DNA of 64,000 bases. It comes from Armatimonadota bacterium (lineage in GTDB: Bacteria > Armatimonadota > Fimbriimonadia > Fimbriimonadales > Fimbriimonadaceae). This document shows, piece by piece, positions 54,563-57,191 of the stretch (positions are counted from its first letter, which is position 1; every line of letters starts with the position of its first letter). The stretch lies in assembly GCA_018268395.1 (NCBI GenBank), contig JAFDWQ010000003.1, positions 531,238-595,237 on the forward strand, given 5' to 3'. The notes under the pieces are model-generated. The model was not told where the DNA came from, ran no database searches, and saw only the letters and a program-made list of their open reading frames with translations. A program made the translations under genes and the position numbers.

Positions 54563-54895
54563 TCAGACCGCGAGGCGTCCAAGGACGTCTGCCGGACGGT
54601 GGGTCAGTTCGCTGTTCGTGACGACGAGGTCCGCCCCACAATCCCGTCCGACGTCGAGCAGGGGGACTTCCTTGTGTCCGGCGTGGGCGACGACCTTGAC
54701 CCCTGAAGTGCGGAGCCGACCGATCCACTCTTCTGGCGGGAACGCGCGGGATCCCAGGTTGACGATGGCCACGTCGCAAGAAGGGGCCACGTCCAACGGA
54801 CGGGGGACGACCTGGACGGTGTGACCGAGCGCCTCCAGAGACTTCCGGAGGCGCTCGCTCCATAGCAGGTTGTCCTCAAGGAGGAGGACCGTCAT
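54563..54895 (-). CDS. Stand-alone receiver-like domain with a lost phosphoacceptor
   Basis: 110 residues, one CheY-like fold: [23 protein letters not shown] (acidic E7, D8), the third strand DVAIVNLGS with N46 where the phosphoacceptor Asp should be, and [11 protein letters not shown] where T/S and the conserved Lys lie. The Asn suggests it cannot be phosphorylated normally, making it a pseudo-receiver. It sits between the flotillin and the CoA-transferase genes, 4 bases after flotillin ends. TAACCT lies 6 bases before the ATG, so it may also have its own promoter. Confidence 0.65.
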
Positions 54896-54899
54896 GGTG

Positions 54900-55814
54900 T
54901 CAGGTTACCGGCTGTGTCTTCTTCGCCTGAGTCTTGCCGCCTTCGGCGACTTTCGCGACCAACTCGGGAAGGTTGATTCCGGACATCGTCTCGACGACGC
55001 CGGGGATCTGGGCCAAGACTTCGGTCACTCCACGAGTGATCTTCTCAACGCCCACCGAGCCGTCGCCGCCCGAGTTCACGAGCGTGATCTTATCGACCCG
55101 GCCGAGAGGCGAAGCGACGGCTGCGGCGATTTCGGGGAGCCGGTCCATCAACATCTGCGTGACGGCCGCGTCGTTGTACTCCTGGTACGCCTTCGCCTTC
55201 TGTTGCATGCCCTCGGCCTCGGCCAGGTACTTCGCTTTGAGCCCCTCGGCCTCAGCCAGCGTCCGTAAGCGGATCGCTTCGGCCTCGGCCTCGCCCTTGG
55301 CCCGGATGACGTCGGCTTCGGCGAGCCCCTGGGCTTTGGCCGCCGCGGCGTCCGCTTCGGCAAGGAGGCGGCGACGATCGGTCTCGGCCTTGGCCAGGAT
55401 CATCGTCCGCTCCTGCTCGGCCTGCGCAGGCTTGAGGACCGAGTGTACGAGTTCGCGTTCACGTCGCTCGATTTCGGCGTTTTCCACCTCGATCTGTTTC
55501 TTCTTTTCGACAATGGAGACGCCGAGCGTTTCTTCGGACAGGACCTGTTGCCGCTTCGCCCTCTGAAGGTCGTACGCCATGTCCGAATCAGCCTTGGCCG
55601 ACTCGACTTCGGCTTCGAACTCCCTTAACCGAAGGTCTTTGTCCTTCTGGGCTTCGGCGACGGCGACGTCTGCGCTGAGCCGCGCGAGCTGCGCCTCTTC
55701 CATGGCTTTGCTGCTCGTGACGGTCGCTTCACGGTCGGCGAGGGCCTTGCCCATCGTCGAGTCGCGGTTGGCCGCTGCCTCGCCGATGATCGCGCTCTTC
55801 CGGACCTCGGCCAT
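54900..55814 (-). CDS. Flotillin C-terminal half (coiled-coil region)
   Basis: 304 residues if started at ATG 55814, but it more likely belongs to the upstream half. Almost all helical: repeated E/A/K heptads (AEVRKSAIIGEAAANRDS, KAQGLAEADVIRAKGEAEAEA in parts) as in the flotillin coiled coil, and a C-terminal VEKITRGVTEVLAQIPGVVE block. No ribosome site precedes ATG 55814 (GGCCGGCCGCAG). Flotillins form membrane microdomain scaffolds. Confidence 0.6.
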   Translation of the reverse strand: MAEVRKSAIIGEAAANRDSTMGKALADREATVTSSKAMEEAQLARLSADVAVAEAQKDKDLRLREFEAEVESAKADSDMAYDLQRAKRQQVLSEETLGVSIVEKKKQIEVENAEIERRERELVHSVLKPAQAEQERTMILAKAETDRRRLLAEADAAAAKAQGLAEADVIRAKGEAEAEAIRLRTLAEAEGLKAKYLAEAEGMQQKAKAYQEYNDAAVTQMLMDRLPEIAAAVASPLGRVDKITLVNSGGDGSVGVEKITRGVTEVLAQIPGVVETMSGINLPELVAKVAEGGKTQAKKTQPVT

Positions 55815-55853
55815 CTGCGGCCGGCCGATCGCGGTCAGATAGCCCTGGGGGTC

Positions 55854-56435
55854 TTAGATCTGCCGGATCGTGAAAGAAATGACCTGGATGCCCATGTTCG
55901 CCAAGTCTTCGCTCGTCAGGCGCTGGACCGTTTGCGCGAAGGTCTCGGGCGAACTGTGGATCTCCTCGAACGGCAACGTGCTGATCACCGAACGCAAGTG
56001 GCCCGACATCATTTGAAGGGCGATCTCGTTCATCTCCGTCCGAGACTTGCTCAGGAACATCTCGGCGGCGGTGATGAGCGACGTCGGATCGTCGCTTCGG
56101 ACCTTGATCTGGGCGATGCCGTCGACGATGATCGGGACGCCGAACTTCGTGTAGAACTCGGGCGTACAGATCTCGAGCGTCATCAGTTCGAGGCTCAAGC
56201 GGTCGACGCGCTCACGGACGGGCCATACGAAGGTTCCGCCGCCGTGGAAGATCCGGAAGTTCTTCGTGGCGGTGTGACCGTCGTGCCCCGTATACGTCGT
56301 TGGGCGGCCGCTCACGATCAAGACTTCGTTCGGACCGACCTTCTCATATCGTCCGGCGACGAAGCCCGCGACAAGGAGGACCGTCGACAGGGCGACGAGT
56401 GGCCAAAGATACGGCAAGATTTGGGATACGTTCAC
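55854..56435 (-). CDS. Flotillin N-terminal half (membrane anchor and SPFH domain)
   Basis: 193 residues, then TAA. Residues ~9-28 are a hydrophobic membrane segment; ~30-190 are the SPFH domain (YEKVGPNEVLIVSGR, GGGTFVWPVRERVDRLSLE, EFYTKFGVPIIVDGIAQIKV, SVISTLPFEEIHSSPETF). The NfeD-like gene ends 3 bases before its start, as in the known NfeD-flotillin pairs such as YuaF/FloT. Confidence 0.7.
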   Translation of the reverse strand: MNVSQILPYLWPLVALSTVLLVAGFVAGRYEKVGPNEVLIVSGRPTTYTGHDGHTATKNFRIFHGGGTFVWPVRERVDRLSLELMTLEICTPEFYTKFGVPIIVDGIAQIKVRSDDPTSLITAAEMFLSKSRTEMNEIALQMMSGHLRSVISTLPFEEIHSSPETFAQTVQRLTSEDLANMGIQVISFTIRQI

Positions 56436-56437
56436 AG

Positions 56438-56986
56438 TTACAGTTCCTCGACAATCGCGACACCGGACTGGACGTCAATGACGATCACTCGGAGACCGGT
56501 GTCCACCGGCCCGTCGTCCGGGGTCTTCGCCGGGACGACCCGGCGTTGGCCCTCGGCGAGATACGTCACCCGACCGACCCCGTCCTGAGGGATCGAAAGG
56601 CACACCGTACCGACCGATCCGATCAGAGTCCGCCCCCTCAAAGGCTCGCCCGCGTCGGTCATCAGCCGCTTGAACACCGCGGTAGCGGCCAGCGAACTGA
56701 CGAGCGTCGCGAGACTGGCGACGACGACGGCCGTCCTTGAACCGGCACCAAAACGGCTCGCGGTCATACCGGCGAGTCCGAAGGCCGTCAAGGTCAGCGT
56801 CAATGTCGGGCCGAGCCAAGGCTTGGCACTTCGGAACCCGTCGGCAAGGCGCATCCTTAGCCGGGGCGGTCGGATCGCCCTCAGGGGCGCCGACGTTCCG
56901 AGAGCCATTAGGGCACCGATGACGATGGCACCGATGAAGAAGGCTTCGACGATCGGTCGGTCGGACAGGTGGTCTGGGAGACCCAT
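56438..56986 (-). CDS. NfeD-like membrane protein
   Basis: 182 residues from ATG 56986, preceded by GGAG at a good distance; ATG 57010 is a poorer start. Three hydrophobic segments (IGAIVIGALMALG, WLGPTLTLTLTAFGLAGM, TAVVVASLATLVSSLAAT) then an OB-fold-like C-terminal domain (LIGSVGTVCLSIPQDGVGRV, GLRVIVIDVQSGVAIVEEL). This is the short, NfeD1b/YuaF-like form without the protease domain. It precedes flotillin by 2 bases, the common partner order. Confidence 0.8.
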   Translation of the reverse strand: MGLPDHLSDRPIVEAFFIGAIVIGALMALGTSAPLRAIRPPRLRMRLADGFRSAKPWLGPTLTLTLTAFGLAGMTASRFGAGSRTAVVVASLATLVSSLAATAVFKRLMTDAGEPLRGRTLIGSVGTVCLSIPQDGVGRVTYLAEGQRRVVPAKTPDDGPVDTGLRVIVIDVQSGVAIVEEL

Positions 56987-57191
56987 GTGGCGCTCCTTCC
57001 CGCCCGACATGCTTGCCAGCTCGTGCGCCTCGGTCTCCGTCGATCAGGTGATCAGCCCAAAGTGAATGGGGCGCGGGAAGTGTTTGTCGGTTCCAATTTA
57101 TCGCGGTTTTCGTCCCAAACCACCGGGCTGGGCCGAAATTCTCAAGGCCTTGCGGTCGCCCTGGCTTCCCGAGTCCCGGTACCCTTTCGAC

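Follow-up and report, generated by a model that had tools for sequence, protein, structure and literature searches.

The window, the whole 64,000-nucleotide stretch of DNA that was analyzed, carries on its minus strand a FloT-type flotillin gene whose reading frame is interrupted by an in-frame TAA (Table 1). Read codon by codon, the gene consists of 193 codons, the TAA, and a further 317 codons in register, with the natural stop at 54900–54902. The two halves cover positions 7–183 and 185–476 of the 477-position NCBIfam FloT model, so that a single model position (184) is taken by the stop. This adjoining coverage indicates that the halves are one gene with one internal stop and not two unrelated ORFs. 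The preliminary description of a flotillin split by an in-frame TAA and otherwise intact, with the register kept past the stop without loss, is thus borne out by the codon reading, the Band_7 and Flot matches, and the model coverage.

Table 1. Features of the interrupted flotillin gene and its neighbors (positions in the window)
Feature	Position	Strand	Description	Basis
Interrupted FloT-type flotillin gene	54900–56435	minus	One gene with internal stop	Translation
Flotillin N-terminal part	55854–56435	minus	193 aa, GTG start; membrane anchor and SPFH/Band_7 domain; ends in internal TAA	Band_7 E 5.2e-21; FloT positions 7–183
In-frame TAA	55854–55856	minus	Residues of orthologs here: Gln, Arg, Ser, Thr, Lys	
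Flotillin C-terminal frame	54900–55853	minus	317 codons plus stop, undamaged; helical wall and C-terminal region	Flot E 6.7e-12; FloT positions 185–476
First possible restart codon	55812–55814	minus	ATG, residue 208, 14 codons past stop	
NfeD-like partner	56438–57010	minus	190 aa, intact, upstream of flotillin	
Small downstream gene	54563–54895	minus	110 aa, response-regulator-like	By eye; no family match

On base composition alone, an open stretch of 317 codons has a chance of ∼1.6e-4; a chance origin of the C-terminal frame is ruled out by homology, the region past the stop being 63% identical to the closest ortholog. Compared with FloT (NCBIfam NF058507) and its nfeD partner, the window gene has the same order of SPFH domain, helical wall, and C-terminal region and likewise sits directly behind an NfeD-like gene. 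It differs in being broken by the TAA at model position 184, and both of its parts score far under the 700-bit curated cut-off, as expected for fragments of a diverged member. The SPFH/Band_7 domain is thus present before the stop, the coiled-coil and C-terminal region lies past it, and the NfeD-like operon partner is in place; the single continuous reading frame of the type, kept at this site in ∼30 orthologs, is missing.

When aligned with the solved cage of the human flotillins, the stop site fell at FLOT1 residue 155, five residues ahead of Tyr160, which the structure paper assigns to the hinge region (PMC11260169). By this alignment, the stop is located at the hinge that joins the SPFH domain to the helical wall. 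In the human protein this wall comprises 186 residues, and oligomerization has been ascribed to the wall together with the C-terminal region (PMC11260169). The window protein is alignable along residues 63–493 with the human flotillin-1/-2 cage (PDB 9bq2, 9l3g; PMC11260169). However, the human flotillins are uninterrupted and carry lipid anchors, whereas the window protein has an N-terminal hydrophobic segment, recognized by eye, and ends before the wall.

When 113 genomes from the order and 291 from the phylum were searched at the protein level, ∼30 close orthologs were recovered, and GTDB contigs added one more. None of the ∼30 phylum orthologs has a stop at the equivalent site. The closest ortholog (genome G084; 71% identical) has CAG (Gln) there, and the others have mostly Arg (CGC), also Ser or Thr, with Lys (AAG) occurring once in ∼30 relatives. 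The single base change from AAA (Lys) proposed earlier is possible, but Gln is the better guess for the earlier residue, because G084 has CAG and Lys is rare at the site; this preference leans on one close relative. Two marks of a recent nonsense pseudogene, homologs that are intact and just one disabling change, were found. The ortholog added by the GTDB contig scan was the only one it yielded and is not another strain of the same species; it lies on CALQJI020000001.1, a contig whose title names a Klebsiella pneumoniae MAG, is close to the flotillins of the window's phylum, and carries an organism label that looks doubtful. A search of viral contigs yielded no relative. Another orthologous flotillin of the phylum (L049; G240:C6:1842-3224) is itself interrupted by a TAG in frame (SKT*KIIVIGG), which lies in the C-terminal region and at another site than the stop of the window gene.

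No suppressor tRNA was found: all 46 Rfam tRNA hits scanned by ARAGORN carry normal sense anticodons. RF1 and RF2, both of which recognize TAA, are both encoded in the genome, and TAA terminates 38 of the 204 long ORFs sampled. Stop-codon reassignment is ruled out by these results, since TAA ends other genes and neither release factor is missing. The RNA past the stop showed no unusual structure (z −1.0). At the first possible restart ATG no Shine-Dalgarno motif was matched, and a short match precedes the main start of the flotillin; since the intact G084 ortholog has the Met of the restart codon as well, this residue did not originate as a start. Scans for promoters and terminators gave no hits. 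According to a published survey, in-frame stops under purifying selection occur widely in bacterial genes and are not invariably fatal (Belinky et al. 2021, PMC7918605). The cases in that study resemble the window flotillin in that one stop is present and the sequence beyond it stays constrained, but they were picked for stops shared between species, whereas the stop described here occurs in one genome only.

Identity to the G084 flotillin was 83% before the stop and 63% after it, and the region after the stop had changed more in both lineages. When changes were polarized with other orthologs, the window lineage accounted for 16 and the G084 lineage for 13 before the stop, and for 44 and 51, respectively, after it. 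The dN/dS ratio against G084 was about 0.18 before the stop and 0.22 after. We found no sign of relaxed constraint, a frameshift, or a second stop in the 317 codons past the TAA. If the gene has been neutral since the TAA arose, the lack of a second stop caps the age of the lesion at under ∼0.08–0.11 substitutions per site; dS between the window copy and G084 is 0.8–1.4, well above this cap. The lack of decay past the stop leaves three readings: a young lesion, a stop that the organism itself does not have, or continued production of the downstream part.

The quality of the assembly was surveyed in a 454-kb sample of the same genome by a coding-potential scan for genes interrupted in frame. 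Apart from the flotillin, it returned one candidate, which by eye is an ordinary rplC/rplD boundary. A frameshift scan of the sample gave four candidates, and the assembly looks clean because these are few and three of the four resemble ordinary gene starts or boundaries. Frequent base errors are not borne out by the two scans, in which an error-rich assembly would be expected to yield further candidates. The remaining frameshift candidate (G000:C3 near 418.5 kb) consists of a frame of ∼566 codons and, after it, one of 178 codons that lacks a clear start. CAA accounts for 1329 of the 3415 Gln codons sampled in the genome.

The NfeD-like gene upstream is intact, as the preliminary description had it. 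Its product is 36% identical over the C-terminal 123 residues to that of the gene preceding the flotillin in G084, where the order of nfeD and flotillin is the same, and itself has no Pfam match. The pair in G084 lies between other genes. A close flotillin occurs in only 3 of the 113 genomes of the order, and the pair is missing from all three congeners. Two of these (G001 and G003) keep CoA-transferase genes, the 110-aa gene, and mtnA together with no nfeD-flotillin pair between the 110-aa gene and mtnA. In the window (54563–57066), the pair occupies what in the two congeners is a very short divergent gap. The longest mtnA ORF probably starts too early (window 57066–57170), homologs aligning only from about residue 35–43. 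The patchy distribution and differing sites of the pair suggest that it is a laterally gained accessory pair, and lateral transfer has been proposed for prokaryotic SPFH genes (PMC2636767); repeated loss is a possible alternative source of the same distribution. Four other SPFH genes in the genome are intact and without stops, which makes loss of the window flotillin plausible. Because only 4 bases separate the natural TGA of the flotillin from the downstream ATG that starts the 110-aa gene, the latter may be translated in coupling with the flotillin, and polarity from the internal TAA could affect both it and the CoA-transferase genes.

We favor a nonsense mutation that is real and arose recently in the accessory nfeD-flotillin pair, a reading to which we assign a probability of roughly 60%. 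Translation would stop at the TAA and leave a 193-aa product consisting of the membrane anchor and SPFH domain. Such a product would lack the helical wall and C-terminal region needed for cage building, and the window flotillin is therefore very probably non-functional. It would also be dispensable, given a patchy and probably laterally gained pair and four remaining intact SPFH proteins. Against inactivation, the total lack of decay past the stop would equally be the outcome of an error, and, CAA and TAA being one base apart, a single wrong base would suffice. An error of sequencing or assembly, or a variant carried by a minority of a mixed sample, in an organism with an ordinary, intact flotillin is accordingly the main rival and a real though clearly less probable one. 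Apart from the TAA the frame is flawless, and its rate of change does not exceed that of the G084 copy; CAA, a common Gln codon, needs only one substitution. Yet the 454 kb scanned yielded no further in-frame stop, frameshift candidates were few, and the G084 codon, CAG, is two changes from TAA. The lesion is moreover a substitution, whereas common long-read errors are indels.

Inactivation, error, readthrough, and a two-part flotillin had all been put forward in the preliminary description; the last two fare poorly, since no suppressor tRNA was found, RF1 and RF2 read TAA, a Shine-Dalgarno motif is missing at the restart ATG, and none of the orthologs is split at this site. Partial readthrough giving full-length flotillin at a low level would fit the constraint that persists past the stop and the in-frame stops under purifying selection reported widely in bacteria, but the stop is not common to any relative examined and the RNA beyond it is not unusually structured, and we consider it improbable. 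The persisting constraint would also fit a working two-part flotillin, in which an SPFH anchor and a separately started wall and C-terminal protein, cut at the hinge between the domains, assemble together, with an ATG available 14 codons past the stop. Restart at this ATG would, however, drop 14 hinge codons, and its Met is already present in the intact G084 protein; this arrangement appears very improbable.

Most likely, then, an optional and probably acquired gene has recently been inactivated in an ordinary way. If the stop is real, the locus would be a snapshot of gene loss just after the event, in an accessory membrane-scaffold pair. If the stop is instead read through or followed by a restart, the gene would provide a test of SPFH and wall domains assembling as separate chains.
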